A DNA stretch of 64,000 nt, taken from assembly GCF_016863435.1 (NCBI RefSeq), contig NZ_BOOW01000028.1, positions 124,001-188,000 on the forward strand. The letters run 5' to 3'. Of the stretch, positions 36,455 to 62,233 are shown piece by piece. The first letter of the stretch is position 1; the number at the start of each line of letters is the position of its first letter. Both the position numbers and the translations under genes were made by a program. This stretch comes from Sinosporangium siamense (GTDB taxonomy: Bacteria; Actinomycetota; Actinomycetes; Streptosporangiales; Streptosporangiaceae). The notes below the pieces were generated by a model. The model had not been told where the DNA came from, did not search any database, and saw nothing but the letters and a program-made list of their open reading frames with translations.

Positions 36455-36892
36455 ATGTCAACGGCTCAGGCAGCGATCAACAAAGCGACGTATAGCCGCT
36501 TTCACGATGCCGTGAACACTCGCGATCTGGAGATCATCTCGAAGGCGATCGACGAGGTCGTCGCGCCGGACGTGCGGTTCCACACGCCGGCGCCGATCGA
36601 TGCGACGGGGATCCAGGCGTTCAAGCGGGTGTGGGCGGTGCTCCTGCCCGCGTTCCCCGACATTCACGTCGCGGTGGAGGATCTGATCGCGGAAGGGGAC
36701 AAGGTCGTCTCCAGGAACACCGTGACCGGGACCCACCAGGGCGAGTACAGGGGCCTTGCGCCAACCGGCAAGTCCGTCGTGTACCAGGAGATCTTCGTCT
36801 TCCGTTTCTCCGACGGCCGGATCGCTGAGGTCTGGGGCGTCGTCGACCTCTACTCACAGCTGCGGCAACTCGGCGCCATTCCAGGCCCGTAG
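36455..36892 (+). CDS. SnoaL-like ester-cyclase-family protein
   Basis: 145 residues after a clear AAAGGAG. NTF2/SnoaL fold: YSRFHDAVNTRDLEIISKAID, LPAFPDIHVAVEDLIAEGDKV, VFRFSDGRIAEVWGVVD. Family members include polyketide cyclases and many small uncharacterised proteins. Similar to the transposon-borne gene at 60370 in fold but clearly diverged. Confidence 0.8.
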   Translation: MSTAQAAINKATYSRFHDAVNTRDLEIISKAIDEVVAPDVRFHTPAPIDATGIQAFKRVWAVLLPAFPDIHVAVEDLIAEGDKVVSRNTVTGTHQGEYRGLAPTGKSVVYQEIFVFRFSDGRIAEVWGVVDLYSQLRQLGAIPGP

Positions 36893-48341: not shown

Positions 48342-48346
48342 GACAA
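48342..48346. repeat. Target-site duplication, left (GACAA)
   Basis: Identical to 62229-62233 on the other side of the transposon. Confidence 0.85.
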
Positions 48347-48384
48347 GGGGCATGACGAGCATCGGATCGGAAAGTCCCGTTAAC
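48347..48384. repeat. Left 38-bp terminal inverted repeat
   Basis: Starts GGGGCATGACGAGCATC and ends CCCGTTAAC. The layout (GGGG at the tip, a GGAAA block, then GTTAA near the inner edge) is that of Tn3 ends. It differs from the right repeat at five positions. Confidence 0.9.
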
Positions 48385-48453
48385 GACCTCGCCAGCTAAC
48401 TATTTGATCTTCTGCTCGCCCATACCACCGCGGCTGCCCTACTTTCGGCGGCT

Positions 48454-51400
48454 ATGCCAGTTGAGTTCCTCAGTGATGGCGAGGCGGCCGTGTACGGCCG
48501 GTTCTCGGGTGCTCCCTCCCAGGCGGAGTTGGAGCGGTTCTTCTTCCTTGATGACGTGGACAGGGCGCTGGTCGCCGAACGGCGCGGATCACACCACCGG
48601 CTCGGCTTCGCTCTTCAGGTAACGACGGCTCGGTTCGTCGGCCGGTTCCTCCCCGACCCGCTGGACGTGCCCAGCGAGGTGCTGCATTACCTCGCCGACC
48701 AGCTCGGGATCGAGGACGTCACGCAGATCGCCCGCTACACCGAGCGGCGCAGCACGCCGTTTGAGCACCAGGAGGTCATCCGCGACGCCTACGCGTTGAA
48801 GGACTTCGCCGAGGCGGAAACGGACTTCGTCGCCTGGGCAGATGCCCGCGCCTGGAACACCGGCGACGGCAAGAAGACGATCTTCTATGACGGGGTGACG
48901 TGGCTGCGCACCAAGAAGGTCCTGCTCCCAGGCGTGACCACCCTGACCCGGCTGGTAGCCAGGGTGCGCGATGCGGCTACCGACCGGCTCTATGAGACCC
49001 TGCATGACGTGCTGTCCCCACGTCAGCGGACGATCCTGCAGATGCTGCTGGAAGTGCCGGACGGCAGGCGTGCCTCCGACCTGGAACGCTGGCGCAAAGG
49101 CCCGGCCGTCACCTCGGGCAAGAACCTGGAGAAGGTGCTGGAGCGCGCGGCTGAGATCCTCGGCGTGGGCCTGGGTGCGATGCCGCTGCCGCTGGAGGTG
49201 CCGCACCGGCGGATGGTGGATCTGGCCCGCTACGGGATGCAGGCCACGGCCACGACGTTGCGCCGCCACGGTCCGTCCCGCCAGCTCGCCACGCTGCTGG
49301 CCACGGGGATCTTCTTGGAGGGCAAGGCGGTCGACGACTGCCTGGAGATGCTGGATCTGCTGGTCACCACCGAGCTGCTGGGCAAGGCCGATACCGCCGC
49401 GGGCAAGGAGCGGGCGCGCCAGCATCCCAAGCTGGCCAAGCACTCGGCCACCCTCGCCGCGGCGGTGGAGATGCTGTTGGAGGTCACCGAATACGGCGAG
49501 GAGTTGCGGCTGGATCAGGTGTGGGAGGCGATCGACGCCATCGTGCCGCGGCGGGAGCTGCGCGAGGCGGTCGCCGCGGTGACCGAGATGGTGCCGCCGC
49601 CCGACGGTGACGCCGACGGCGAGATGCGGGCGCTGCTGGCCTCGCGGATCGCCACCGTGTCCGGGTTTCTCAAGACGCTGACCACGGTGATCGACTTCGG
49701 CGCCAACGCCGAGGGCGCGCGGGCGCTGGCGGCGATGAAGCAGTTGCCCCGACTGCTGGACGGCCGCAAGAAGAAGGTCACAGAGGCCGACATCGATCCC
49801 GCGCTGGTGAGCGGTTCCTGGAAGCGGCTGGTGTTCAAGAACCTGCCGAACGGCAGCACCGTGGACAAGAACGCCTACAGCATGTGCGTGCTCACGCAGT
49901 TCCACCGCCACCTCAAGCGCCGCGACGTCTACGCCGAGACCTCGGCCCGCTGGCGAGACCCGCGCGGCCAGCTCCTGGACGGCGCGCGCTGGCAAGCGGC
50001 CAAGGGGCCTGCCCTGGTCGACCTGCAGCTTCCGGAGGATCCCGGCCAGATGCTCGCCGAGCACGCGCTGGTGCTGCACCTGGCGCTCAACGACGTCGCC
50101 GGCCGGGCCGGGCGCGACGGGGTGGACGTCAGCGTGGACGCCGAAGGACGGCTGCATGTGGCCAAGCTGACGGCCCTGCCGGAGCCGCCGTCGCTGATCG
50201 ATTTGCGCAAGCGGGTGCTGGCGATGCTTCCGCGGGTCGACCTGCCGGAGGTGCTGCTGGAGGTGATGGGCCGGGTTCCGGCGTTCGAGGCCGCGTTCAC
50301 CTCGGCCGCCGGCGGGGTGAGCAAGCTGGCCGACTTCCGCGTTTCGGTCGCGGCCTGTTTGACGGCCCAGGCGCTGAACATCGGCTACGCGCCGGTGGTC
50401 AAGGCCGGGACGCCCGTGCTGGAGCGCGGCCGGCTCTCGCATGTGGCGCAGAACTACCTCTCAGCCGAGACCTACACCCTGGCCAACGCCCCGCTCATCG
50501 ACGAGCAGGGACAGCTCGGCTTCGCCCAGGCGCTCGGCGGCGGGCTGGTCGCGGCGATCGATGGGATGCGGTTCGTGGTCCCGGTGCCCTCCATCTACAC
50601 CCGGCCGAACAAGAAGTACTTCGGCCGCTCGCGCGGGGTCACCTGGCTCAACATGATCAACGACCGTGGTGTGGGGCTCGGCGCGAAGGTGGTCACCGGC
50701 ACCGTGCGCGACTCCCTGCACATGATCGACGTGGCGTTCCGGCGTGATGGCGGGCCGCGCCCGGAGGTCCTGGTGACCGACACCGGCTCCTACAGCGACG
50801 TCGTCTTCGGGCTGGTCCACCTGCTGGGCATGCAGTACCGGCCGGCGCTGGCCGACATTCCCGACCAGAAGGGCTGGCGCATCCAGGACGCCGACTATGG
50901 CAGCCTGTCCCGCTTCGCGCGCGGGAAGATCGACCTGGACAAGATCAGGCGGCATTGGGGCGACATCCTGCGCGTCGTGGTGTCGATCTACACCGGCGAG
51001 ATCCGCGCCTACGACCTGATGCGCATGATCCAGCGCGACGGCAACCCCACCCCGCTGGGCGAGGCGATCGCGCACTACGGCCGCATCTTCAAGACGCTGC
51101 ACATCCTCACCTACGCGGTGGAGGAGCCCTACCGGCGCGACATCAAGGGTGTGCGCAATCTGCAGGAGTCCCGGCACGCCCTGGCCGGGAAGATCTTCCA
51201 CGGCAAGAAGGGTGAGTTGTATCAGCGCTACCACAAGGGCATGGAAGACCAGCTTGGGGCGCTTGGCCTGGTGCTCAACTGCGTCACGCTGTGGAACACC
51301 TTCTACATCGACCGGGCCCTCGACCAGCTCAAAGCCGACGACTACCCCCTGGCTGAGGAGAATGTGGCGCGGTTGTCGCCGTTCGTGCGCCAGCATCTCA

Positions 51401-51504
51401 ACGTGATCGGCACGTACTCCTTCGCCCAGCCCGACCTCGGACCCGCCGGTGTCCGCCGGCTCCGTAACCCCGATGAACCGGACTGGGAGGACGAGGGCCT
51501 GTAG
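48454..51504 (+). CDS. tnpA: Tn3-family transposase
   Basis: 1016 residues, the normal length for TnpA. The N-terminal DUF4158-type DNA-binding region (VYGRFSGAPSQAELERFFFLDD) recognises the inverted repeats; the C-terminal part is the Tn3 DDE catalytic domain, with YFGRSRGVTWLNMINDRGVG, LVTDTGSYSDVVFGLVHLLG (catalytic Asp region) and RDIKGVRNLQESRHALAGKI. Frame and motifs are intact, so it is probably active. It starts 70 bases inside the left repeat and is transcribed inward. Confidence 0.95.
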   Translation: MPVEFLSDGEAAVYGRFSGAPSQAELERFFFLDDVDRALVAERRGSHHRLGFALQVTTARFVGRFLPDPLDVPSEVLHYLADQLGIEDVTQIARYTERRSTPFEHQEVIRDAYALKDFAEAETDFVAWADARAWNTGDGKKTIFYDGVTWLRTKKVLLPGVTTLTRLVARVRDAATDRLYETLHDVLSPRQRTILQMLLEVPDGRRASDLERWRKGPAVTSGKNLEKVLERAAEILGVGLGAMPLPLEVPHRRMVDLARYGMQATATTLRRHGPSRQLATLLATGIFLEGKAVDDCLEMLDLLVTTELLGKADTAAGKERARQHPKLAKHSATLAAAVEMLLEVTEYGEELRLDQVWEAIDAIVPRRELREAVAAVTEMVPPPDGDADGEMRALLASRIATVSGFLKTLTTVIDFGANAEGARALAAMKQLPRLLDGRKKKVTEADIDPALVSGSWKRLVFKNLPNGSTVDKNAYSMCVLTQFHRHLKRRDVYAETSARWRDPRGQLLDGARWQAAKGPALVDLQLPEDPGQMLAEHALVLHLALNDVAGRAGRDGVDVSVDAEGRLHVAKLTALPEPPSLIDLRKRVLAMLPRVDLPEVLLEVMGRVPAFEAAFTSAAGGVSKLADFRVSVAACLTAQALNIGYAPVVKAGTPVLERGRLSHVAQNYLSAETYTLANAPLIDEQGQLGFAQALGGGLVAAIDGMRFVVPVPSIYTRPNKKYFGRSRGVTWLNMINDRGVGLGAKVVTGTVRDSLHMIDVAFRRDGGPRPEVLVTDTGSYSDVVFGLVHLLGMQYRPALADIPDQKGWRIQDADYGSLSRFARGKIDLDKIRRHWGDILRVVVSIYTGEIRAYDLMRMIQRDGNPTPLGEAIAHYGRIFKTLHILTYAVEEPYRRDIKGVRNLQESRHALAGKIFHGKKGELYQRYHKGMEDQLGALGLVLNCVTLWNTFYIDRALDQLKADDYPLAEENVARLSPFVRQHLNVIGTYSFAQPDLGPAGVRRLRNPDEPDWEDEGL

Positions 51505-51579
51505 GCATCGGCTCTCTCGCCCGACCGCAGCCCCGACCATGAGCCCCTCCGCCACGAGCGCCGGAGGCAGGGCCGATGG

Positions 51580-51813
51580 TCACTCGGTGGCGTGCCGAAC
51601 TTGGGCGCTGCTCGTAGCCCGGGCGGCGAGAAAGTGCAGGCGGTCGCCGGACGGGGTGACCGGTGCAGCGGAGTAGGCCAGCAAGGTGAGCGGCGTCTCG
51701 GCGGGCAATTTGAAGACCTCGTAGTCGAGCTCGAGGACGCCGACAGCGGGGCGGTGAAAACGTCTGGTGCCGTGACCCGCATGAGCCGATTCGTCACCTG
51801 GCGAAGATCGCAT
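51580..51813 (-). pseudogene. MmyB-type XRE regulator, C-terminal fragment
   Basis: HGTRRFHRPAVGVLELDYEV and LTLLAYSAAPVTPSGDRL are the last 60 residues of Xre regulators with an MmyB ligand domain; upstream the match shifts frame and ends. Residual cargo or capture. Confidence 0.6.
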
Positions 51814-51839
51814 CTCACGATTCCTTCCGCCCCGGCGTC
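51812..51839 (+). promoter_or_regulatory. ECF-type promoter 1 (before acetyltransferase-like gene)
   Basis: ATCTCAC (51812-51818), 17 bases, CGTC (51836-51839). One of seven copies inside the transposon. Predicted start about 100 bases before the gene at 51947. Confidence 0.7.
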
Positions 51840-51946
51840 TTCTCGATGCCGGGGCTCGAACGCCCGGCTCAGCGTGCCCGCGGCCGCCCGCGCCCGGCGG
51901 TCGCGGGCATCCTTATCCCGACGACGGGCGCGTGGAAATTGTGCGA

Positions 51947-52426
51947 ATGAGCAGCCGACGAGACCGGCGTTATAGCCTGATCGACTTCGGCCCTGACTCG
52001 TACGGGGTTCTCCGGCAGCGAGCGGCCGCCGCCGGTTACCGCTTCCCGAATCTCGCGATCCGTGACACGAGGCTCGCCATGGCGGTCGGAGACCTCCTCC
52101 AATCCGCCATGGTCTGCGGCGGAATCGACGTAATGCCGTTCACCATCCGCGACGAGAGCCTCGTCGTGGTGGCCTGCGAAGGCGACGAGCCCGCCGGCAT
52201 TTCGGCTATTGACCCCACCGGAGACATCCCACGCGACGTCGTGACCTGGGTAGACCCCACCCACGAGCCGTGGGTGGAGCAGGTTCTCAAGATCGAACTG
52301 CTGCGCGAGGCCCGGACGGCGGGCATCGACCGGGTGAGTGTCGTGCGTGGCACGGCGACCGAGGCCGTCTATGAGTCCCTCGGCCTGCATGGCGTCCGGG
52401 AGATCTCTTCCGATGCGCCGCAGTAG
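51947..52426 (+). CDS. Hypothetical protein, possibly acetyltransferase-like
   Basis: 159 residues from ATG 51947 (a GTG 15 bases earlier is possible). The C-terminal part, EQVLKIELLREARTAGIDRV then ATEAVYESLGLHGVREI, resembles the end of GNAT acetyltransferases, in which a substrate loop precedes YESLGF. The acetyl-CoA binding loop is not evident, so the call is weak. It is the first cargo gene under a putative ECF promoter. Confidence 0.45.
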   Translation: MSSRRDRRYSLIDFGPDSYGVLRQRAAAAGYRFPNLAIRDTRLAMAVGDLLQSAMVCGGIDVMPFTIRDESLVVVACEGDEPAGISAIDPTGDIPRDVVTWVDPTHEPWVEQVLKIELLREARTAGIDRVSVVRGTATEAVYESLGLHGVREISSDAPQ

Positions 52427-52726
52427 ATCACACGTGAGGTTCCCGGGTTGGGTCATGCCGGAGCGCCCTGCTGCGACTGCTCACGGCTGGTTCACGGCAC
52501 GCCCGCCGCACCCGACCGGCGTGCGCGGTGCCGCGCAGCGGGCGCTCCACGTACCGGGACGGACGGGCACGACAGCTGGGCGCCGTGAATCGCGGTTCGC
52601 CGAGCGCGGCGTGCGGGCCGTCCCCATCTCTACCCCGAGGACATGTCGTGCACGCTCTTGTGTGAACATCCGCGCGGGCTTGCTGCGTCTGGCGTGAGCG
52701 TCGCGTGCCACGTCGAGTTCTGCCGG

Positions 52727-52754
52727 ATCTCACGTGTCGTCTCGACCGAGCGTC
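52727..52754 (+). promoter_or_regulatory. ECF-type promoter 2 (before the decayed ogt)
   Basis: ATCTCAC, 17 bases, CGTC, then TTCG. It precedes the broken ogt gene at 52783 by about 30 bases. Confidence 0.75.
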
Positions 52755-52782
52755 TTCGCACCACCATGAGGGAGGGACTCAG

Positions 52783-53010
52783 ATGAACAGTCGACATGTC
52801 ATGGCCGACACCGGCTTCGGGTCGATCACCGTGCCCGCCAAGGACGAGGCGATCAAGCGGCTGTCCGTCTGGGACCACATCCGCCGGCCCGAGCAGGACA
52901 CGTTCGGTCCGGAAACGGTCGCCTCTACCGACATGCCCCGAACGACGCGGCCGAGCAGTTGCGGGACCACCTCGCTGGCAAGCACGCGCGAGAGCCGGTG
53001 TGTCCGGGCA
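52783..53010 (+). pseudogene. Decayed ogt copy
   Basis: ATG after GAGGGAGG. MNSRHVMADTGFGSITVPAK and DHIRRPEQDTFGP parallel the start of the intact ogt at 54820 (MNTRHAVIETYLGPITVVAK, HHVRRPSQEMFGP). A frameshift near 52935 moves the match to NDAAEQLRDHLAGK, after which it ends. The catalytic domain with PCHR is absent. Confidence 0.8.
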
Positions 53011-53036
53011 CCCGCCTCGCCAGGCGGTGACGTCCG

Positions 53037-53064
53037 ATCTCACGATCATGGGATCGCGAGCGTC
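53037..53064 (+). promoter_or_regulatory. ECF-type promoter 3 (before a small hypothetical gene)
   Basis: ATCTCAC, 17 bases, CGTC. About 50 bases before the start at 53115. Confidence 0.75.
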
Positions 53065-53114
53065 TGCCTGAGCGCAGACAAAGAGCAGACCTGCATGCAG
53101 ATGGGGCAAATGCG

Positions 53115-53405
53115 ATGAACCAGGAACGAGACCAGCAAGATCCAGAATCGGCGTCGTGGCTTGATGAACACTATTCGTTGTCGGCGGACCGGATGTTTGC
53201 CCTCGACGAAGTGGCGGCCGCAGCACTGATTCCTACGGCTCCCGGCGTCGTGTGGAGGGCGGCTGTCGTCGCTACGTTCGGGACCGACGCCACTGGGAAG
53301 GCCGTCACGTACCTGCAGTATCTCCAGGATGTCGAGGGGCGAGTAGCGGAACGCGACATCATGCGGACCTTGATCCGCATGATGCGTAGCCGCATCGGAA
53401 TCTAG
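53115..53405 (+). CDS. 96-residue hypothetical protein of the alkylation island
   Basis: The middle reads SLSADRMFALDEVAAAALIP and VAERDIMRTLIRMMRSRIGI at the end. Predicted soluble and helical; no family recognised. The promoter in front suggests it belongs to the sigma factor's regulon. Confidence 0.5.
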   Translation: MNQERDQQDPESASWLDEHYSLSADRMFALDEVAAAALIPTAPGVVWRAAVVATFGTDATGKAVTYLQYLQDVEGRVAERDIMRTLIRMMRSRIGI

Positions 53406-53469
53406 GTGTGATGCCCGTTCAAAGATCGCCTGCCTTATGGATCTTCGGCGGCCGTGGATCACGCGGTCG

Positions 53470-53723
53470 GAATGCTGTCCAGCTGCTGGATACCGCGAGG
53501 CCGTCGTCGAGGTGGAATTTCTCGACGATCTGGCCGTCCATGACCTGGAGAATGGGTCATGTCCGTGAAGCGCATGGTCTTGCCGGACGCTGCCGGGGCG
53601 GAGGCGATGGGCAGGGTCGGTGAAGTCGGAATGGCCGGTGTGCGTATCGCCGCTCTCCCACCGGCCCTCGACGAAATCGACCTCGGCGGTCAGGCCGGTG
53701 GTGTGAGAGAGGTAAGGCGACAA
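53470..53723 (-). pseudogene. Decayed ester-cyclase copy
   Basis: LTAEVDFVEGRWESGDTHTG parallels DLIAEGDYVVGQWEGGGTHTG of the intact gene at 60370; after a frameshift, PAASGKTMRFTDM-like and VMDGQIVEKFHLDDGLAV follow. N-terminus missing. Confidence 0.65.
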
Positions 53724-53734
53724 GAGGTATTGCC

Positions 53735-53925
53735 CCGTGGGGTTGGGGACGCGGCTGGCCCTTCAGCGCGGTGTGCCCGCGATGGTGGCTGCAGGGTGTT
53801 AGCCCCATACCGAAGGCGTCGCGTCGTTCGTGCTCGGTGCGATTGGGCCGGGCGTATGCCCGTTCGTCGAACAGGGTTTGGTTGAAGCGTCCGTTTTCCC
53901 GTTGGTTGGGGGCTCGGCGGGTGGT
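53735..53925 (-). pseudogene. IS481-type transposase fragment
   Basis: GRFNQTLFDERAYARPNRTE and HHRGHTALKGQP match the C-terminal part of IS481-like transposases (the usual NGKVERFNQTL with catalytic Glu). Here the Glu position reads Gly (NGRFNQTL lacks VE), and the frame is broken. Confidence 0.55.
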
Positions 53926-54343
53926 GAAGCGGAGGTTGACCAGCTCCAGCTCGTCGATGATCGGCCTCAACGTGGCCAGGGCAGCGTGGTCCCGCCCGCC
54001 TCGGCCCGGTCCCGATGCCGCCGGGACCGGTGATCCCCAGCCGGGCCGAGGCGGGCGGGGTTCTGTCCGACGATCAGTCCGCCGAGGTCGGGGAGGACCT
54101 GCTCCATGGTGCTCCCGCGTCCTGGCCGGCGACCGACTGCGCGTCTTGGACGCCGGACACGCCACACTGGCCCGGGCATCGCCGGGCGGTCAGAAGACGC
54201 GCCATGCCCGCGGTCTATGCCGGGTGCCTGCATGAGACGTGGGAAGGGGCTGCGGATGTCGATGAGAATGGTGTGGCTCATGCGGCCAGAGGCCGGAAGC
54301 GGCCGAGGCGGCGTCGACGCGCTTACGGGCCATCTTCGGTGCC
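53926..54343. other. No intact gene
   Basis: A minus-strand frame (to about 54281) contains EQVLPDLGGLIVGQNPARLG, protein-like but not assignable; another stretch reads LRPIIDELELVNLRF. Probably eroded cargo. Confidence 0.4.
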
Positions 54344-54595
54344 TCAGGCCTCGCGGGGAGGTGGATGATCTGTCTTGGCCGCAGTCGCGTCGTCGCCCGG
54401 GTCCGCGCCGCGATAGGGGATGTCGGTGCCGTAGTAGGTGATGCCTTCGGCCGGCATGAGGAACCAGTGGCGCTCGACGCAGCGCAGCTTGAGAAGCAGA
54501 ACCTCATCGACAGGGCTCTCCCACTCGATGGAAGCCATATTGCCGCATTCCGGGCAGGTGAGAAGTGTGAGCCCGCTGTCGGACGGCCACGTCAT
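54344..54595 (-). CDS. 83-residue protein with a CPECG motif
   Basis: ATG 8 bases after GAGGGG. LTLLTCPECGNMASIEWESP carries one CxxC; a further Cys lies in LKLRCVERHWF, so a small zinc ribbon is possible but incomplete. It has its own ECF-type promoter on the minus strand, back to back with that of ogt. Function unknown. Confidence 0.6.
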   Translation of the reverse strand: MTWPSDSGLTLLTCPECGNMASIEWESPVDEVLLLKLRCVERHWFLMPAEGITYYGTDIPYRGADPGDDATAAKTDHPPPREA

Positions 54596-54639
54596 GATGT
54601 GCACCCCTCAGACGAGCTCGGGCGGCTGGTCGATGAGCA

Positions 54640-54667
54640 AACGCATCCCGGCGGCCCGATGTGAGAT
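54640..54667 (-). promoter_or_regulatory. ECF-type promoter 4 (minus strand)
   Basis: On the minus strand: ATCTCAC (54667-54661), 17 bases, CGTT (54643-54640), then TGCT. The predicted start is about 38 bases before the ATG at 54595. The -10 has CGTT, as in promoter 5. Confidence 0.7.
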
Positions 54668-54755
54668 CCGTGCCCGGCTGGGTCAGATCGTGCGGGTCAG
54701 GTGCGGGAGCCGCAGCGGGAACGGCCGCACCGACCACGGCCCGGTGGCGGAGCGG

Positions 54756-54783
54756 ATCTCACGTTCTGCGGACGACGTCCGTT
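54756..54783 (+). promoter_or_regulatory. ECF-type promoter 5 (before ogt)
   Basis: ATCTCAC, 17 bases, CGTT, then TACC. It ends 36 bases before the ogt start. Confidence 0.75.
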
Positions 54784-54819
54784 TACCGGGTGAGAGATGT
54801 CAGGAGAGGGGAGACGCAG

Positions 54820-55332
54820 ATGAATACCCGACATGCCGTGATCGAGACATACCTGGGCCCGATCACGGTCGTCGCCAAGGCCGCGGCGATCAGCGGGCTG
54901 TACTACGAGCATCATGTCCGCCGCCCCTCGCAGGAGATGTTCGGCCCCGAGGTCGGTGACGGGACGGATCCGCTGCTGAACGAGGCTGTGGGCCAGCTGT
55001 GCGACTACCTGGCGGGGCGGCGCAGGGACTTCGATCTCCCGTTGGAGGCCGAGGGTGACGCGTTCCAGCGGGCCGTGTGGGACCTCGTGAAGAGCATCCA
55101 GTGCGGGGACACCACCACCTACGGCCGAATCGCGGAGCAGGTCGGAGACCGTGCTCTCGCGCAGAAGGTCGGGCAGGCCGTGGGTGCGAACCCGCTGTGC
55201 ATCTTCGTCCCGTGCCACCGCGTCGTCGGCTCCACCGGCGCTCTGACCGGGTACGCCGGCGGGCTCAACCGCAAGCAGGTGCTGCTGGCACTCGAGGAGC
55301 CGTCCGCGGGCGAGACCGGGAGGTTGTTTTGA
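54820..55332 (+). CDS. ogt: Methylated-DNA-protein-cysteine methyltransferase
   Basis: 170 residues, AGGAGAGGGGAG before ATG. The N-terminal domain is followed by the DNA-binding helix-turn-helix and active site FVPCHRVVGSTGALTGYAGG. It removes methyl groups from O6-methylguanine by irreversible self-methylation. The recognition helix reads AQKVGQAVG where relatives, including the copy at 55870, have an arginine (RAVRAVG) that flips the damaged base; this may weaken or alter its activity. Confidence 0.9.
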   Translation: MNTRHAVIETYLGPITVVAKAAAISGLYYEHHVRRPSQEMFGPEVGDGTDPLLNEAVGQLCDYLAGRRRDFDLPLEAEGDAFQRAVWDLVKSIQCGDTTTYGRIAEQVGDRALAQKVGQAVGANPLCIFVPCHRVVGSTGALTGYAGGLNRKQVLLALEEPSAGETGRLF

Positions 55333-55338
55333 CCGGGA

Positions 55339-55366
55339 ATCTCACGTTTGCCGCCGCATATACGTC
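55339..55366 (+). promoter_or_regulatory. ECF-type promoter 6 (before the sigma factor operon)
   Basis: ATCTCAC, 17 bases, CGTC, then TTCC. The predicted start falls at or just before the ATG at 55376, so the message is probably leaderless. If the sigma factor reads this promoter, it activates itself. Confidence 0.8.
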
Positions 55367-55375
55367 TTCCATGGG

Positions 55376-55873
55376 ATGGGCATGAAACAACCGTTCGAGA
55401 GCGTGGTGGCACAGCATGGCGCCACCGTGCTGCGCGTCTGCCGGGTCATTCTCGGCCCGCATGACGCCGAAGACGCGTGGTCGGAGACCTTCCTGGCCGC
55501 CATGCGCGCCTATCCCGATCTGCCGGAGATGGCGAATGTGGAGGCGTGGCTGGTGACGATCGCGCATCGCAAGGCGATCGACGTGCTGCGGGCCGCGAAG
55601 CGGAACCCCCTGCCCGTCGACGAGGTACCGCAAGCGCCGGGGCAGGACGACGCGGTGGATGTCGAGGCCGTCGGCCTGTGGTCGGTGGTGAAGGAACTGC
55701 CCAGCAAGCAGCGCCAGGCCATCGCCTACCGATACGTGGCGGGGCTGGCCTACGCCGAGATCGCGGAGATCCTCGGCGGCACCGCCGACGCGGCCAGGAG
55801 AGCCGCCGCCGACGGGCTGAAGAATCTCAGGAGACACTATCCGGGCGCCATCTCGAAAGGAGCATCGTCGTGA
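55376..55873 (+). CDS. ECF-type RNA polymerase sigma factor
   Basis: 165 residues, only regions 2 and 4. Region 2 (about 30-75): PHDAEDAWSETFLAAMRAYP, WLVTIAHRKAIDVLRAAKR. Region 4 (about 105-155): LPSKQRQAIAYRYVAGLAYA, then EIAEILGGTADAARRAAADG. No anti-sigma gene follows; instead the next, overlapping (GTGA) gene encodes an Ogt methyltransferase with an N-terminal extension. That suggests alkylation sensing through Ogt (inference). Start could also be ATG 55382. Confidence 0.85.
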   Translation: MGMKQPFESVVAQHGATVLRVCRVILGPHDAEDAWSETFLAAMRAYPDLPEMANVEAWLVTIAHRKAIDVLRAAKRNPLPVDEVPQAPGQDDAVDVEAVGLWSVVKELPSKQRQAIAYRYVAGLAYAEIAEILGGTADAARRAAADGLKNLRRHYPGAISKGASS

Positions 55874-56487
55874 GCGACGTGCGCAACGATGACGACCTGG
55901 CCGTCCTGCTGTCGACTGCCGTGGACGCCGATACCCTCAGCCGTCTCCACCGCCGTCTGGAGCAGGCCGCGGAGCGGGCGGACCTGATCGATGTCGCGTA
56001 CACGACCATCGACTCACCCGTCGGCAGGCTGCTGCTCGCCGCCACCCCGAAGGGATTGGTCCGGGTCGCCTTCGACGGCGAGGACCACGACCGGGTTCTG
56101 GAAACCCTCAGCCAGAAGATCAGCCCGCGGATCCTGCGTGCGCCTCAGCGGCTGGAGGAGACGGCTCGCGAGATCGACGAATACTTCGCCCGCCGCCGTC
56201 AGGTCTTCGACGTGCCACTGGATTTGTCCCTGTCGCACGGGTTCCGGCGGCTGGTGCAGACACACCTGCCCGAGATCGCCTACGGGCAGACCCGCAGCTA
56301 CCGGGACATGGCCGAGCTCGTCGGCAACCCCAGGGCCGTCCGCGCCGTGGGCACCGCCTGCGCGACCAACCCGCTGCCGATCGTCGTCCCCTGCCACCGC
56401 GTGCTGCGCACCGACGGCACCCTCGGCGGCTACATCGGCGGACTCGACGCCAAGACCACGCTGCTGGACCTGGAGGCCGCCGCATGA
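55870..56487 (+). CDS. ogt: Ogt methyltransferase with N-terminal extension, coupled to the sigma factor
   Basis: 205 residues from a GTG overlapping the sigma stop. About 40 residues (VLLSTAVDADTLSRLHRRLE) precede the Ogt fold, which begins AYTTIDSPVGRLLLAATPKG. The helix-turn-helix arginine (RAVRAVG) and active site VVPCHRVLRTDGTLGGYIGG are intact. The extension is helical and could contact the sigma factor. Reads directly into the oxygenase gene (ATGA). Confidence 0.85.
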   Translation: MSDVRNDDDLAVLLSTAVDADTLSRLHRRLEQAAERADLIDVAYTTIDSPVGRLLLAATPKGLVRVAFDGEDHDRVLETLSQKISPRILRAPQRLEETAREIDEYFARRRQVFDVPLDLSLSHGFRRLVQTHLPEIAYGQTRSYRDMAELVGNPRAVRAVGTACATNPLPIVVPCHRVLRTDGTLGGYIGGLDAKTTLLDLEAAA

Positions 56488-57221
56488 GCACGACAGCAAC
56501 GGGGAAGGCGACGGACCGCTGGCACCGGCGGGTCGCCTCCGGCGACTGGGAGGCGATCACCGTGGAGGTCAACGAGTACGGCGGCGCGCTGCTGCCGCAG
56601 CTGCTGACCCCCCAGGAGAGCGCGGAGATCAGGGAACTGTACGAGCAGGACCACCTTTTCCGCAGCACCGTCGACATGGGCCGCCACCGCTTCGGCGCGG
56701 GCCAGTACCGCTACTTCAACACGCCCTACCCCGAGCCTGTCGAGCAGCTCAAGCAGGCGCTCTACCCCCGGCTGCTGCCCATCGCCCGCGACTGGTGGGC
56801 CAAGCTCGGCCGGCCCGCGCCGTGGCCCGACTCCCTGCAGGAGTGGCTGCAGATGTGCCACGACGCCGGCCAGACGAAGTCCACCGCGATCCTGCTGCGC
56901 TACGCCGAGAAGGACTGGAACGCCCTGCACCGTGACCTGTACGGCGACCTGGTGTTCCCGCTCCAGGTCGTGATCAACCTCAACGAGCCCGGCGTGGATC
57001 ACACGGGCGGCGAGTTCCTGCTCCTGGAGCAGCGCCCGCGCGCCCAGTCCAGGGGCACCTCCACCCTGCTGCCGCACGGTCACGGCTACCTGTTCACCAC
57101 CCGCGACCGGCCCGTTCGCTCGGCCCGCGGATGGTCGGCCGCACCGGTACGGCACGGCGTGTCCGCCATCCGGTCCGGCGAACGCCACACCCTGGCCCTC
57201 GTCTTCCACGACGCCGCATGA
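56484..57221 (+). CDS. 2-oxoglutarate/Fe(II) oxygenase
   Basis: 245 residues. The iron-binding HxD is HRD in DWNALHRDLYGDLVFPLQV; the distal His and 2-oxoglutarate Arg appear in VRHGVSAIRSGERHTLALVF. Related to AlkB-like and prolyl-hydroxylase-like oxygenases found beside alkylation-repair genes. The substrate may be alkylated DNA or protein. ATGA overlaps on both sides. Confidence 0.8.
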   Translation: MSTTATGKATDRWHRRVASGDWEAITVEVNEYGGALLPQLLTPQESAEIRELYEQDHLFRSTVDMGRHRFGAGQYRYFNTPYPEPVEQLKQALYPRLLPIARDWWAKLGRPAPWPDSLQEWLQMCHDAGQTKSTAILLRYAEKDWNALHRDLYGDLVFPLQVVINLNEPGVDHTGGEFLLLEQRPRAQSRGTSTLLPHGHGYLFTTRDRPVRSARGWSAAPVRHGVSAIRSGERHTLALVFHDAA

Positions 57222-57508
57222 GTGACGCGACCAGGACGTACACCCTGCTGGGAGCGGACGGCCTCCCCTACCAGTCAGCGGTCAAGGGACTGTGGGGCGG
57301 CCACCGCTGCTCGAAGATCTACGGCCGGCTCGACTGCCCCGCCGCCCTGCGCGCCATCGCCGACGGCGGCTACGTGCGGCACCGGGTCTTCTTCGCCGAC
57401 GAGGCCACCGCGATCGCGGCCGGGTTCCGTCCCTGCGGGGCCTGCTGCCGCGACCGCTTCCAGCAATGGAAGAGCTCCCAGCAGGAGGACCGGCCATCGA
57501 CTTCCTGA
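57218..57508 (+). CDS. Stand-alone Ada metal-binding domain protein
   Basis: 96 residues. Matches only the N-terminal zinc domain of Ada: KIYGRLDCPAALRAIADGGY, then HRVFFADEATAIAAGFRPCGAC. In E. coli Ada the four cysteines bind zinc and Cys38 accepts methyl from phosphotriesters. Here the position of that first cysteine is Gly (IYGRLDC versus the FCxxxC pattern), though a Cys lies five residues earlier (HRCSK). No AraC or Ogt part is attached. Coupled to both neighbours. Confidence 0.8.
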   Translation: MSDATRTYTLLGADGLPYQSAVKGLWGGHRCSKIYGRLDCPAALRAIADGGYVRHRVFFADEATAIAAGFRPCGACCRDRFQQWKSSQQEDRPSTS

Positions 57509-58020
57509 CCAGCCCCCTGTTGAAGAGGCCTGCCGGCCACGACGCCGACGTCATGATCACGGACGCCGAGACCGAGGCCCTTATCCGGCTGGCCCGCGAC
57601 CGCCGCGCCCAAACCATCGCGATCGGCTCCGGCCGTACCCCGCGCGCGCTGGAGAGCGCCCGGCTGATCGAAGCGGTCTGGGAGCGTACGGGAGGCACCA
57701 TCCTCACCATGATCACCTGGCCCGAGATCGGCGCTTCCTGGCTGCGCCACGCCTCCCGGTTCGCCGACGCCGACCCTGACCTGTGGGTGATGACGGGCGC
57801 CGCGACCGGCTGGGCGCAGATGACCCGCCGCCTGCTGTGGTCGACACCGTGGCGCCCCGAGCGCACCCTGGCGACCGCCGCGATAGGCGATCCGCGCACC
57901 CTCGCGCTCGTCGGCCTGATCAACCTGAACGGCTTGGCCGGCACGACCGCCCACGGCACGACCTGGCGCGTCGAGGACGACACCTTCCACTATCCCGCCC
58001 GCACGCAGGAGGGACCGTGA
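57466..58020 (+). CDS. Hypothetical protein of the alkylation operon
   Basis: 184 residues if started at ATG 57466, which has no ribosome site and overlaps the Ada gene by 43 bases. A perfect AGGAGG (57483-57488) points instead to ATC at 57496, a very rare start. The body is protein-like (TDAETEALIRLARDRRAQTI, PEIGASWLRHASRFADADPD, GWAQMTRRLLWSTPWRPE) with no recognised domain. Stop overlaps alkB as GTGA. Confidence 0.6.
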   Translation: MEELPAGGPAIDFLTSPLLKRPAGHDADVMITDAETEALIRLARDRRAQTIAIGSGRTPRALESARLIEAVWERTGGTILTMITWPEIGASWLRHASRFADADPDLWVMTGAATGWAQMTRRLLWSTPWRPERTLATAAIGDPRTLALVGLINLNGLAGTTAHGTTWRVEDDTFHYPARTQEGP

Positions 58021-58688
58021 CAGCACTGTTCACCGCGCAGTTCCCCGGCCGCGACGCCAGGGAGATCATGCCCGGCGCCGTCCATGTCCCGGACTGGCTG
58101 ACCCTGCGGCAGCAGCGATGGATCACCGGCCAGTTCCACACGTGGGCGCAGGGCCCGGTGCCCCTGCGTGCCGCGATGGTCCGAGGCCACCGGATGTCCG
58201 TGCGCACCGTGTGTCTGGGCTGGCACTGGCAGCCCTACCGGTACACACGAGCGGCCACCGACGTCAACGGGGCCCGCGTGCTGCCGTTCCCCGATTGGAT
58301 GATCCGTCTGGGACGCGATGCCCTCCAGGCCACCGGCCACGCCCCGGACGTCGTTCGCGCCTACGATCCGGACACCGCTCTGGTGAACTTCTACGACACC
58401 GACGCCCGCCTGGGGATGCACCAGGACAAGGACGAGAACTCCCGAGCCCCGGTCGTCTCGCTGTCCATCGGCGACACCTGCACCTTCCGCTTCGGCAACA
58501 CCGAAAGCCGCGGCCGGCCGTACACCGACCTGATGCTGGCCTCCGGCGACCTGTTCGTCTTCGGCGGGCCCGCCCGCCTGGCCTACCACGGTGTCACCAA
58601 GGTGCATCCAGATACCGCCCCCGCGGGGTGCGGTATCAGCAACGGCCGGATCAACATCACGATGCGCATGACAGGGCTGGACGGGTGA
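58017..58688 (+). CDS. alkB: AlkB-type DNA repair dioxygenase
   Basis: 223 residues from GTG. The core has NFYDTDARLGMHQDKDE (His and Asp iron ligands), LAYHGVTKV (distal His) and RINITMRMTG (two Arg for 2-oxoglutarate and substrate). AlkB repairs 1-methyladenine and 3-methylcytosine by oxidative demethylation. It ends 4 bases before tag. Confidence 0.9.
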   Translation: MTALFTAQFPGRDAREIMPGAVHVPDWLTLRQQRWITGQFHTWAQGPVPLRAAMVRGHRMSVRTVCLGWHWQPYRYTRAATDVNGARVLPFPDWMIRLGRDALQATGHAPDVVRAYDPDTALVNFYDTDARLGMHQDKDENSRAPVVSLSIGDTCTFRFGNTESRGRPYTDLMLASGDLFVFGGPARLAYHGVTKVHPDTAPAGCGISNGRINITMRMTGLDG

Positions 58689-58692
58689 CCAC

Positions 58693-59316
58693 ATGACGCA
58701 ACAAGCCGGCCCCACGCTCTCCGACCCTGGGGTGGTCGTCGGAGAGGACGGACTCGCCCGGCCCGCCTGGGCCGCCGTCGACCCCCTGCTGCGCGACTAC
58801 TACGACTGCGAGTGGGGCATGCCGGTCACCGACGAGCGCGGCGTCTACGAACGCGTCAGCCTCGAAGGGTTCCAGGCGGGCTTGTCCTGGGCGACGATCC
58901 TGCGCAAACGGCCCGCGTTCCGGGTGGCGTTCGACGACTTCGACCCGAACGTGATCGCCACCTACACCGACGCGGATGTCGAACGGCTGATGGCCGACGC
59001 CGGTATCGTGCGCAACCGGCGCAAGATCCTGGCCACCATCGCCAACGCCCGCGCCACCATCAGGCTGCGCGAGAACGAGGGGCTGCCCGGCCTGGTGTGG
59101 TCCTTCCAGCCCGAGAGCACCCCCCGCCCCCGGACCTTCGCGGAGATCCCCACGAAGTCCGCGGAGTCCATCGCGCTGTCGAAGGAACTGCGCCGGCGCG
59201 GCTTCGCCTTCGTCGGCCCGACCACCATGTACGCCCTCATGGAGGCGATCGGTATCGTCGACACCCACCTGCTGGACTCGCACCGGCGCGGCAGCTCGGG
59301 CATCTGGCCCTCGTGA
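58693..59316 (+). CDS. tag: 3-methyladenine DNA glycosylase I (Tag), zinc ligands lost
   Basis: 207 residues. EWGMPVTDERGVYERVSLEG then FQAGLSWATILRKRPAFRVA, and DAGIVRNRRKILATIANARA are signature blocks of Tag. In E. coli Tag four residues bind structural zinc; here RPAWA replaces RCxW, YYDCEW replaces YHDxEW and HLLDSHRR has Ser for Cys, so only the histidine in VDTHLL remains. A zinc-free variant is inferred. Last gene of the coupled operon. Confidence 0.85.
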   Translation: MTQQAGPTLSDPGVVVGEDGLARPAWAAVDPLLRDYYDCEWGMPVTDERGVYERVSLEGFQAGLSWATILRKRPAFRVAFDDFDPNVIATYTDADVERLMADAGIVRNRRKILATIANARATIRLRENEGLPGLVWSFQPESTPRPRTFAEIPTKSAESIALSKELRRRGFAFVGPTTMYALMEAIGIVDTHLLDSHRRGSSGIWPS

Positions 59317-59339
59317 CCCTCCTCCTCCGCCGGGCCCCA

Positions 59340-59476
59340 AAGGGAACATCTGCTGCGAGGCCGCGTTGCGGATGCTGGCCGCCCAAGCAATCCCGCGAGC
59401 CGAACACGTCGACGTCCCGGGCCGCAGCCACACCCGGCTGCTGCACCACGCCGGCGCACCCGTACGGGAGAGGTGA
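59340..59476 (+). pseudogene. Alpha/beta hydrolase C-terminal fragment
   Basis: ICCEAALRMLAAQAIPRAEH, VPGRSHTRLLHHAGAPV. The catalytic His region of a hydrolase remains, nothing before it. Its stop overlaps the start of the decayed alkA (GTGA). Confidence 0.45.
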
Positions 59477-59990
59477 CCTTCGCCGAGGACGTGGTCGCCG
59501 CCGAATCCCGTGACCAGACGCCTCACCCCGACGGCATGGCGGCCGCGATCCGCCGGTGGCCGGACCTCGACTCCGACATCGCCCGGATCGAGGGCGAACT
59601 CGCCGCCGACCCGCTGATCCGCCCGCTGGTCGAACGCCGGCCGGCGTCCGGCTCCTCGGCTACCCCCGACGAATGCGAAGCGGTCATCGCGACGGTCGCC
59701 GGCCAGCAAGCCTCCCTCGCCGCGGCCCGCACCTGTAAGGCCAGACGTGTCGCCGCCGACGGAAGGACGGCAGCCGGGCTGAGGGCCCTGCCCGCACCGT
59801 GAGAACTCGCGGCGGTCCCCGACACCGAACTCCAGGCGACCGTCGGGCTCACCGGTGCACGCACCCGCACCCTCCGCGCCGTCGCCGAGCGGTGGGCGGA
59901 CGGGTTCACCCTCGCGCACCTCACCACCGACCAGGCCCGCGGAGCCCCACTCTCGCGCTCCCCGGCATCGACATTCCTGCGTAATGCCCC
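59473..59990 (+). pseudogene. 3-methyladenine DNA glycosylase II (AlkA), decayed
   Basis: ARIEGELAADPLIRPLVERR and ATVAGQQASLAAART belong to AlkA. In-frame TGA at 59800 follows ALPAP, and the match continues ELAAVPDTELQATVGLTGAR, TLRAVAERWADGF. A frameshift near ARGAPL leads to ALPGIDIPA and a stop before the catalytic Asp. A small compensated shift also lies near 59645. Confidence 0.7.
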
Positions 59991-60283
59991 GCGCGCAGGG
60001 CACCGACCCATGATCGTCCAAGCGGCACCACGACACAGACCAACGAGGAACCGCTCGGCCTGAACCCCGTCGAGACAGCCGCCCGGCCGAAGCCCGGCCC
60101 CGCGTGCGGGCTTCTCCCCTCCCTTCTCTGCCGGACGGCCCGGCGGTCCTGCTGCGGGCGCCTCCCGACCGCGACAGGAACCAGTCCCGGCATGCCCCCA
60201 GCAGTAGTGCGCCTTGAACCCGAAGAACAAGCGCACGCCCGCACGGCCGGCCTTCGGTTCGATCCCGGAAGGCTCTATCTCCC
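59991..60283. other. Spacer before the ester-cyclase promoter
   Basis: No gene recognised; a short frame near 60192 (VVRLEPEEQAHARTAGLRFD) is protein-like but runs through the promoter and was not called. Confidence 0.4.
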
Positions 60284-60311
60284 ATCTCACATTTCGAACC
60301 CGGCGAACGTC
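60284..60311 (+). promoter_or_regulatory. ECF-type promoter 7 (before the ester cyclase)
   Basis: ATCTCAC, 17 bases, CGTC, then TTCGG. About 60 bases before the gene start. Confidence 0.75.
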
Positions 60312-60369
60312 TTCGGAACGTCATCACGCCGCAGGCGAACCGCTGACAACAACAGAAAGAGACAGACCC

Positions 60370-60819
60370 ATGTCGCTTGAAGAGAACAAGGCCATCGTCG
60401 GCCGCTGGTTCACCGAGTTCTGGGGCAAGGACTTCAACCCCGGCATCATCGACGAGCTCGCCGCACCGGACATCCGCTTCGAGTACTCACTGCACAAGCC
60501 GATGAGCGGGCGCGAGGAGGTTCGCGCCTTTGCGACCAACTTCCGCACCGCGTTCCCGGACCTCAACTTCTGGGGCACCGCCGACCTCATCGCCGAGGGC
60601 GACTACGTCGTCGGACAGTGGGAGGGCGGCGGCACGCACACCGGACCGATCGTCTTCGACGACCTGCCCATCGGCTCCGTCCCGGCAGCGTCGGGCAAGA
60701 CGCTCCGTTTCACCGGTAAGACGGTCCTCAAGGTCCAGAACGGCCTCATCGTCGAAGAACTCGGACTCGACGACGGCGTGACGGTCCTCCAGCAGCTCGG
60801 CATCATTCCCACCGCCTGA
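60370..60819 (+). CDS. SnoaL-like ester-cyclase-family protein
   Basis: 149 residues. ENKAIVGRWFTEFWGKDFNP, FPDLNFWGTADLIAEGDYVV, LKVQNGLIVEELGLDDGVTV: the SnoaL/ester cyclase fold. A decayed copy lies at 53470, so this gene is a regular part of the island. A link to alkylation is not obvious; it might detoxify an alkylating metabolite (speculative). Confidence 0.8.
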   Translation: MSLEENKAIVGRWFTEFWGKDFNPGIIDELAAPDIRFEYSLHKPMSGREEVRAFATNFRTAFPDLNFWGTADLIAEGDYVVGQWEGGGTHTGPIVFDDLPIGSVPAASGKTLRFTGKTVLKVQNGLIVEELGLDDGVTVLQQLGIIPTA

Positions 60820-60910
60820 GCTGAACAGCCACGGTGAGCCACCTCGGCGTCGAGGCCACCGGCGACGTAGTAGCCGACCCCCTTGATCGCCCTGCTGGTC
60901 GCTGAAATAG

Positions 60911-60937
60911 GGTCGGCGGCTCATTGAGCCGCCGACC
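60911..60937 (+). terminator. Hairpin terminator after the ester cyclase
   Basis: GGTCGGCGGCTC, loop ATT, exact reverse complement (12-bp stem). It separates the cargo from the recombination module. Confidence 0.75.
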
Positions 60938-60983
60938 TTACCGAGACCAGGACGTGGCTACCGCCCGAAGGCCTCCGGCTGAA

Positions 60984-61012
60984 GTACGTGATAACAGCCT
61001 ATTATCACGTAC
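60984..61012. other. Putative recombinase core site (11-7-11 inverted repeat)
   Basis: GTACGTGATAA, spacer CAGCCTA, TTATCACGTAC: perfect 11-base arms around 7 bases, the architecture of tyrosine-recombinase core sites such as dif or the TnpI sites of Tn4430. It is immediately upstream of the leader ORF and recombinase, as expected for the internal resolution site. A similar site lies at 44489. Confidence 0.75.
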
Positions 61013-61123
61013 ATGAGCGACCACGGCACCGCGGCGACCAGGCGAACGCCTTGCCGGGACGCTGCGCGACTCCGGCACGTTATCCAGTACATCGCCGACG
61101 GCGCAACGCGGCGGCCGGCATGA
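61013..61123 (+). CDS. 36-residue leader ORF coupled to the recombinase
   Basis: Starts one base after the core site and its TGA overlaps the recombinase ATG. The arginine-rich product (RDAARLRHVIQYIADGATRR) matches the longer minus-strand frame at 44528. No ribosome site is visible, so it may be leaderless or serve only to couple translation. Confidence 0.5.
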   Translation: MSDHGTAATRRTPCRDAARLRHVIQYIADGATRRPA

Positions 61124-62061
61124 GCGCCGCGCCGAAGGTGACCGCCCTGCGCGGCGGGAACGTCTCGCTCGCCGCGGCCGCCGACGCCTTCCTGGCCACC
61201 CCGCGCGCCGCCAACGCCAACACCCACCGCGCCTACGCCTCGGCCATCGACCGCGTCATCGTCCTGCTCGTCCGAGATCGGACCCTCGCCGACGTCGCCG
61301 ACGCCGAGATCGGCGCCGCGCTCGCCGAGCTGTGGGGCCGATGCGCGCCGGCGACCTGGAACCGCAACCGCGCCGCCATCGCCTCCTGGCTGACCTGGTG
61401 CCAGACCAGGAAACACTGGGCCGCCCCGTCGGTCCCGGCCGAGGCCGAACGCCGCAAGGAGAACGCCGACGAGACCCGCGCGGTCGCCAAGACCACCGTC
61501 CACCGGCTACTGTCACGCCGCGACATCCCCCTGCGCGAGAAGACGCTGTGGCGGATGCTCTACGAAACGGCGGCCAGAGCGGCTGAGATCCTGGCGCTGA
61601 ACGTCGAGGACCTCGACCTTGAGCATCGCCGCGCCCCGGTTCGGTCCAAGGGCGGCTCGATCGAGTGGGTGTACTGGGACAGCGGCACCGCCCACCTGCT
61701 GCCCCGTCTGCTCCGGCTCCCGGACGGCAGCGCGCGCACGCGCGGCCCGCTGTTCCTGTCCGAACGCCGCCCCGTCCCCGCCCGCCGCCCGGCGGCTGCC
61801 GACATCTGCCCGCACACGGGCCGCGCCCGCCTGGGCTACGACCGCGCCCGCGTCCTTCTGGAGAAGTACGCCGGGCTCGATCTGCACCAGCTGCGCCACA
61901 GCGCCGCCACCCACCTCGGCGAGGCCGAGGTCCCGCTGCAGCTCATTATGGGCAAGACCCGGCACAAGAACCCCCGCACCGCCATGCGCTACGTCAAACC
62001 CGGCGCCGAGGCCATCGCCAAGGTCACCGAAGTTCTGGCGCCCCGCCGTCGTACGCACTGA
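61120..62061 (+). CDS. tnpI: Tyrosine recombinase, TnpI-like
   Basis: 313 residues. N-terminal SAM-like DNA-binding domain (AADAFLATPRAANANTHRAY), catalytic domain with Arg in YETAARAAEILALNVEDLDL, HxxR in DLHQLRHSAATHL and nucleophile Tyr in RTAMRYVKPG. The second histidine box reads MGKTRH rather than LGH. In Tn4430-type elements such an enzyme resolves cointegrates at a site upstream of its gene, which fits this layout. Intact and close to the right end. Confidence 0.85.
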   Translation: MSAAPKVTALRGGNVSLAAAADAFLATPRAANANTHRAYASAIDRVIVLLVRDRTLADVADAEIGAALAELWGRCAPATWNRNRAAIASWLTWCQTRKHWAAPSVPAEAERRKENADETRAVAKTTVHRLLSRRDIPLREKTLWRMLYETAARAAEILALNVEDLDLEHRRAPVRSKGGSIEWVYWDSGTAHLLPRLLRLPDGSARTRGPLFLSERRPVPARRPAAADICPHTGRARLGYDRARVLLEKYAGLDLHQLRHSAATHLGEAEVPLQLIMGKTRHKNPRTAMRYVKPGAEAIAKVTEVLAPRRRTH

Positions 62062-62120
62062 TCAACTCTTGCACTCAGCCTTCCCGAAGGCATGGTCGCT
62101 CTTCGTGGTGCCCGACACTC

Positions 62121-62228
62121 CTACATGCGAAAACACGATCGCGAGGGACATCCGAACGGAAAGTCACGCTAAGTCGTCCGCTGGCGCTCCACTAACGGGA
62201 TTTTCCGTTCGGATGCTCGTCATGCCCC
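62121..62228 (+). repeat. Tn3-end repeat, copy C, containing the right terminal inverted repeat
   Basis: Inner part: TGCGAAAAC, 18 bases, CGAACGGAAAGTCACG; outer part: the 38-bp right repeat (62191-62228) ending TCATGCCCC. The inner block itself resembles a Tn3 end pointing the other way, giving an inverted pair CATCCGAACGGAAA/TTTCCGTTCGGATG. Confidence 0.85.
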
Positions 62229-62233
62229 GACAA
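62229..62233. repeat. Target-site duplication, right (GACAA)
   Basis: Same five bases as 48342-48346. Confidence 0.85.

Follow-up and report, generated by a model that had tools for sequence, protein, structure and literature searches.

A Tn3-family transposon of Sinosporangium siamense carrying a predicted self-controlled sigma factor regulon for DNA alkylation repair

Among the extracytoplasmic function (ECF) sigma factors, the group ECF122 is entered with "unknown mechanism" and with a 6-O-methylguanine DNA methyltransferase as its conserved neighbor; the listed example is WP_057211282.1 of Cellulomonas sp. Root930 (PMC8999054). A second group, ECF41, carries a C-terminal regulatory extension and has the target TGTCACA-n16-CGTC (PMC3426412). 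In the Ada adaptive response of Escherichia coli (reviewed in PMC4437013), the output is an activator with a helix-turn-helix (HTH). We analyzed a stretch of 64,000 nucleotides of Sinosporangium siamense (contig NZ_BOOW01000028.1, positions 124,001 to 188,000), which we call the window. It contains a Tn3-family element (48347-62228) that encodes an ECF sigma factor (55376-55873, plus strand) and bears seven copies of the motif ATCTCAC-N17-CGTY. We consider it very likely that these are seven promoters read by the element's sigma factor. Upon DNA alkylation, this factor would act in a positive loop, activating its own operon together with six further units on the element, of which one is decayed.

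The sigma factor has 165 amino acids, matches PF04542, PF08281 and TIGR02937 (sigma70-ECF) above cut-off, and possesses sigma70 regions 2 and 4 only, as is typical of group 4 (ECF) factors. Its region 4 match ends at 151-152, and the C-terminal extension of ECF41 is absent. The targets of the two share the -35 core TCAC and the -10 element, but here the -35 element is ATCTCAC and stands 17 bp before CGTY (compare PMC3426412). The likeness to ECF122 (PMC8999054) lies in two points: there is no recognized anti-sigma factor, and a methyltransferase gene, ogt2 (55870-56487, plus strand), starts within the last 4 nt of the sigma gene. Ogt2 is encoded directly downstream of sigma at 161 of 163 distinct actinobacterial loci, with the same 4-nt overlap in 130 of the 161; a contig end cuts it at one of the other two (L195), and the last (L189) is a second sigma copy in one genome. 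A relative from Cellulomonas sp. Root930 (L083), matched to WP_057211282.1 by organism only, shows 61% identity to the window's sigma factor in its best-matching segment, with Ogt2 downstream here too. Given this neighbor and this relative from the listed organism, we call the sigma factor ECF122-like, which would place it in a named but uncharacterized group.

The ECF122 entry names no promoter or regulon (PMC8999054). Among the papers listed in our literature searches, with subscription papers outside them, we found no promoter, regulon or signal for an ECF122-like sigma factor; the supplement of the reclassification paper (gkaa1229) may contain a predicted motif. The present locus would supply the group with a precise target promoter, likely regulon members, some of them away from the sigma operon, a candidate sensor and a transposon-borne copy. 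Relatives of the sigma factor were collected from named genomes (best 80 of 386 loci), from genomes of the family and later from genomes of the class. Counting the genome under study in each case, 58 of the 297 family genomes (E <= 1e-20) and 46 of the 394 class genomes (E <= 1e-30) have one.

The first-pass annotation had placed the seven sites at 51812, 52727, 53037, 54667 (minus strand), 54756, 55339 and 60284, all within one transposon. An exact pattern search of both strands returned precisely these seven matches in the window, whereas 100 dinucleotide shuffles gave 0.05 on average and never more than 1. All seven lie inside the Tn3-family element. The minus-strand core (54640-54667) faces the minus-strand gene at 54604-54344, as the annotation had it. 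All seven sites read CGTYTNC, an extension beyond the motif first described. When the sites were aligned with their flanks, every invariant column fell within ATCTCAC and CGTYTNC, and no flanking position was common to all.

Is the motif peculiar to the element? For the bare core, the answer from the whole genome (8,855,038 bases) is no: an exact-core search, which leaves degenerate chromosomal targets with mismatches beyond its scope, gave 14 matches, seven in the element and seven elsewhere. For the extended form, the answer is yes: the TNC extension is present at 7/7 matches inside the element and at 0/7 outside. Four of the outside matches lie within or antisense to long open reading frames (ORFs; L001, L003, L005 and L007, mechanical ORFs) and three lie between ORFs (L002, L004 and L006), with L004 preceding what by eye is a LysR-like ORF. 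The bare core is moderately specific across relatives, with 258 matches in ~459 Mb of 57 sigma-positive genomes (0.56 per Mb) and 54 in ~141 Mb of the 20 sigma-negative genomes individually listed in the family search (0.38 per Mb), rates that are hand-made sums over rounded genome sizes.

A motif was also learned from other genomes with no pattern preset. An expectation-maximization search of 80 non-redundant sigma-upstream stretches, taken from 95 distinct other loci, yielded ATCTCACGTT-N13-GCGTCTAC. When the resulting matrix was run over both strands of the window, the seven sites took ranks 1 to 7 (18.8 to 31.4 bits); rank 8, at 36370, scored 10.9 bits and rank 9 fell below 0. The seven exact-core matches elsewhere in the genome scored at most 6.1 bits. 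Across 1,312,647 bases (the 95 other loci plus the window), there were 145 matches at 15 bits or more, against 1 in a reversed control, and 147 at 12 bits, against 3. Sorted by downstream gene, and with the window's own seven included, 65 of the 145 belong to the sigma cluster; 58 more stand before the ogt1 cluster, and the training windows had not covered the promoters of the latter. The rest comprise 9 before a mixed SnoaL/acetyltransferase-like cluster, 2 before a PF09859 oxygenase, 2 before a small protein, 8 single cases and 1 without an ORF. We reject a chance origin of the seven sites on the strength of the shuffles, the matrix ranking and the reversed control.

Each site stands in front of a gene or gene remnant. 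Site 1 (51812-51842, 29.2 bits) is upstream of a gene at 51947-52426, named acetyltransferase-like in the first-pass annotation; its product has no NCBIfam match. Site 2 (52727-52757, 23.5 bits) precedes the decayed 5' part of an ogt1-like gene (52784-52980); positions 52768-52979 match the ogt1 region of another locus (L011) at 71% DNA identity, and there is no full-length ogt ORF. Site 3 (53037-53067, 27.9 bits) is upstream of a gene for a 96-amino-acid protein (53115-53405). Site 4, on the minus strand (54637-54667), is the weakest at 18.8 bits and faces the gene for an 86-amino-acid CPECG protein (54344-54604, minus strand). Site 5 (54756-54786, 25.1 bits) precedes ogt1 (54820-55332), which encodes an O6-methylguanine-DNA methyltransferase without N-terminal extension, site 6 (55339-55369, 27.3 bits) the sigma gene, and site 7 (60284-60314, 31.4 bits) a gene for a SnoaL-like protein, or "ester cyclase" (60370-60819). 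Apart from site 4 and its gene, all of these are on the plus strand.

The position of the motif relative to the sigma gene is informative. At 116 of the 163 distinct loci, and at 51 of the 67 fetched after training, the start of sigma has a site of at least 12 bits no more than 150 nt away, against none in the reversed control. Extending the range to 1 kb upstream raises the count to 150 of 163, with the site often before ogt1 where ogt1 directly precedes sigma. In 97 of the 116 loci, the end of CGTY and the first in-frame ATG or GTG of sigma are 6, 8 or 9 nt apart; in the window, the distance from the end of CGTC to the start codon is 9 nt. Leaderless messages are common in Actinobacteria, and a spacing of 6 to 9 nt is what one would expect if CGTY were the -10 element and such a message began with the start codon. 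Hence motif, position and locus comparison support the first-pass proposal that these are ECF promoters, one of them before the sigma gene, read by the element's own sigma factor. That factor would recognize ATCTCAC as the -35 and CGTYTNC as the -10 element. Sequence comparison shows the motif, its tie to the sigma-Ogt pair in many Actinobacteria, its place before the start codon and the repair content of the operon, and it gives good support to the promoters and to autoregulation; we infer that RNA polymerase with this sigma factor uses the motif.

Could the sites instead be operators of a DNA-binding regulator, Ada-like or LexA-like? The host chromosome does encode an Ada-AlkA-like protein of 482 amino acids (L217), and the cargo is of a kind that Ada controls elsewhere. 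However, the motif consists of two unlike halves, asymmetrically arranged and always 17 bp apart, its occurrence follows that of the sigma-Ogt pair, and the leaderless -10 position of CGTY in those 97 loci leaves little room for a downstream promoter. We judge operators to be very unlikely.

Nor do we favor the idea that the sites are gene-cassette recombination sites, although the element has seven sites, one per gene, and encodes a XerC/integron-integrase-like tyrosine recombinase (61120-62061, plus strand; XerA/XerC-type matches, below their cut-offs). The same sites precede sigma, ogt1 and SnoaL genes in other genomes, and no relatives of the element's transposase or integrase were found at the 95 other distinct sigma loci, many of which span ~3.5 kb and the named ones at most 8 kb on each side. 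The distances to the sigma and SnoaL start codons are near-constant, and the site flanks have no invariant column beyond the motif. On these grounds, we rejected recombination sites, which we regard as extremely improbable.

Some observations weigh against promoters dedicated to this sigma factor. No site of at least 12 bits lies within 1 kb of sigma at 13 of the 163 loci, two of which have less than 1 kb of upstream DNA. In the genome under study, the seven bare-core matches outside the element amount to 0.79 per Mb of 8.8 Mb, slightly above the rate in relatives. Several SnoaL genes lack a site: those at L227 and L029, and the distant relatives at L017 (51% identity) and L051 (73%).

What would such promoters control? 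The sigma factor would activate an operon, on the plus strand throughout, that continues from sigma and ogt2 with a 2-oxoglutarate (2OG)-type oxygenase (56484-57221; PF09859 Oxygenase-NA by Pfam), a small Ada_Zn_binding-domain protein (57218-57508), a protein without Pfam or NCBIfam match (57466-58020), an AlkB-like 2OG-Fe(II) dioxygenase (58017-58688, by profile matches) and a Tag-like 3-methyladenine DNA glycosylase (58693-59316; PF03352). The model of the 57466 protein, built from 16 of 19 matching sequences with the window's own counted and rows with stops or short matches left out, is similar to a single lobe of a type-1 periplasmic-binding fold. Which of the operon genes are retained differs among the other loci. 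Counting the window's own locus, and as lower bounds in view of the many short loci, the oxygenase is present at at least 52 of 96, the Ada-like protein at at least 33, AlkB at at least 29, Tag at at least 20 and the 57466 protein at at least 18. An alkylation-repair regulon is the plain reading of this content, and we infer that DNA methylation is the inducer.

The arrangement differs from that of the Ada response, in that a sigma factor, for which there are dedicated -35 and -10 elements, is the predicted output in place of an HTH activator. No HTH was matched by Pfam in the operon proteins scanned. An Ada regulon has one activator with metal-binding, HTH and methyltransferase domains in its unit; here the small Ada_Zn protein and Ogt2 are separate. 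One might see the small protein as the sensor of a split Ada, since it brings an Ada-type metal-binding domain to the operon. That it occurs at only 33 of 96 distinct loci, itself a lower bound, and that its match covers profile positions 18-63 only make this quite unlikely in our estimation. The host chromosome already encodes the Ada-AlkA-like protein and further Ogts, which makes the system brought by the element a second, independent one. Such a system would be an alternative to Ada for an adaptive alkylation response in Actinobacteria.

We wondered which protein might sense the damage. Our best candidate for a sensor and anti-sigma factor is Ogt2, which combines the MGMT fold and a PCHR active site with an N-terminal extension (amino acids 1-40) of its own. 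Cys175-His-Arg is invariant in 161/161 sequences, and the extension residues L26, L30 and D41 are each kept in 158/161. The host's four other Ogt-like proteins align with Ogt2 only from residue 40 or later. The same is true from residue 37 or later for 42 of 46 solved sequences; the four that start earlier (at 12, 23, 34 and 35) are engineered fusions. In a structure model built from 69 of the 161 sequences, the extension is predicted to form two helices, 7-15 and 20-36; whole-model searches test residues 40-205. Cys164 of Ogt2 was considered as a special feature and dropped, as a cysteine stands at this position in the Ogt next to the host's Ada as well.

In the mechanism that we tentatively propose, this suicide repair enzyme would keep the sigma factor bound through its 40-residue extension. 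Once Cys175 had been irreversibly methylated with a methyl group taken from damaged DNA, the sigma factor would be set free, and the used-up repair protein would thereby report damage directly. Repair and signaling would be a single chemical event if this were true, and a whole self-amplifying alkylation response, with its own dedicated promoters, would sit in a transposon and could be installed in a new host. The sensing role of Ogt2 is less supported than use of the motif by the sigma factor or induction by methylation. A rival account, possible if somewhat doubtful, gives Ogt2 no part in the control of sigma: this would be exerted through transcription, or through alkylation of Cys22 in sigma itself, and Ogt2 would be just a co-expressed repair enzyme.

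Several results speak for this rival and against Ogt2 as sensor. Cys22 is near-invariant (157 of 163 proteins) and is the only cysteine of the window's sigma factor, and the active site of Ogt2 is complete. Pfam recognizes no anti-sigma domain in Ogt2, and there is no natural sigma-Ogt fusion among the 161 pairs. The 161 pairs of sigma and Ogt2 (effective number 103) contained no usable signal of covariation: the best inter-protein pair ranks 6th of all pairs, and the others are scattered. The sigma copy at L189 does without Ogt2 altogether. On the other side, Ogt2 alone among the partners is retained at 161 of 163 loci, in most of them with the 4-nt overlap, and its extension is absent from the host's other Ogts. 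On balance, we regard the element as a mobile version of a known but uncharacterized sigma system, for which promoter and regulon are well supported by comparison and the sensor step is put forward as a hypothesis.

The SnoaL gene provides a view of regulation away from the sigma operon. Orthologues, defined as relatives of 60370-60819 at E 1e-30 or better, were found in 8 of the 199 other family genomes; each of these eight is sigma-positive (sigma-positives overall, 58/297). The hypergeometric P for this co-occurrence is 1e-6; it becomes 9e-6 when 49 of the 199, a number counted by hand, are taken as sigma-positive. A site precedes SnoaL in seven of the eight, with CGTY ending 56-62 nt before the start; two score 11.6 and 12.6 bits (L224 and L225) and the other five 16.8-25.2. 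In three of these seven (G038, G115 and G152), SnoaL is on a different contig from sigma; these are draft genomes, which show the separation of the two genes and not its distance. Named loci with a SnoaL site are L009, L016 and L024. The pattern speaks for true regulation over shared descent of one block. In the Microtetraspora glauca locus (L013), a SnoaL-type promoter sequence of 25.1 bits stands at 13051, and the locus has no SnoaL match.

The remaining targets differ in how far comparison reaches them. Relatives of the acetyltransferase-like protein occur at three other loci (L009, L013 and L024), with a site upstream at two. For the 96-amino-acid and CPECG proteins, searches of the plasmid collection and of 199 other family genomes gave no relatives, and the evidence for their sites is therefore the motif score. 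Their genes may have joined the regulon while part of the element, or they may be fortuitous neighbors. A decayed, inverted partial copy of SnoaL (53459-53703, minus strand; 75.6% DNA identity to 60576-60819) has no site above threshold in front of it.

The first-pass annotation had suggested a whole private regulon carried by the transposon. In one sense the term holds, in that all extended exact-core sites of this genome are in the element. In others it needs qualification: the sigma factor has the many family and class relatives counted above, and at 95 other loci, many of them short, no relatives of the element's transposase or integrase were found; two of the targets have no relatives in the genomes and plasmids searched, the ogt target at 52784 is decayed, and a weak eighth candidate site lies outside. 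This site, at 36370, reads GCCTCAC-N17-CGTC (10.9 bits) and lacks the TNC extension. It ends 57 nt before the ATG (36455) of another SnoaL-like gene (site and gene in the stretch 36370-36892), the distance being 56-62 nt for SnoaL in other genomes.

The element itself has the hallmarks of its family. Tn3-family elements are defined by a Tn3 transposase, terminal repeats of ~38 bp and a 5-bp target duplication. Here a transposase of 1016 amino acids (48454-51504, plus strand; an ORF for which matching plasmid DNA is annotated "Tn3 family transposase") is enclosed by inverted repeats of 36 bp (48347-48382, plus; 62193-62228, minus) that begin GGGG and are 92% complementary, and GACAA is directly repeated on both sides (48342-48346 and 62229-62233). 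Together with the XerC-type recombinase, these features make it like the Tn3-family transposons that carry a tyrosine recombinase, from which it differs in that its cargo is a predicted autoregulated sigma regulon. Similar ends, with at most 3 mismatches, were found in 5 of 99 other genomes searched.

Where did the cargo come from? Within the collected relatives (the best 80 of 386, plus the family genomes), the closest sigma is from Streptomyces (L008, 89% identity), against 81% for a copy from the same genus (G004). DNA similarity to eight loci (L008, L009, L010, L013-L016 and L092) sets in exactly at 54756, where site 5 begins, and extends into the operon, so that a promoter marks the edge of the conserved stretch. 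One Streptomyces locus (L009) has everything from ogt1 to tag, the acetyltransferase-like gene and SnoaL, with their sites, and no transposase relative in the available stretch. Hence the element appears to have acquired, in full, a regulon that also exists at ordinary loci of other genomes; we see in it a widespread regulon packed into a transposon and no invention of the transposon. An entire response to DNA-methylating chemicals, its own control included, can probably pass from one bacterium to another as a unit. This suggests that a transposon can carry genes plus a dedicated transcription system, such that the cargo needs no fitting into the host network.

Other observations concern mobile contexts. 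Three plasmid records carry relatives of the sigma factor, a second such context: NZ_LR134464.1 of Tsukamurella (72%, with an annotated methyltransferase under the match), NZ_AP024649.1 of Arthrobacter (61%) and NZ_CP110616.1 of Rhodococcus antarcticus (58%). The right end of the element matches a Nonomuraea gerenzanensis record in the plasmid collection that is without annotation. Within the window, a third, more diverged copy of the terminal repeat lies at 33284-33319 in right-end orientation and is perhaps the end of an older related element.

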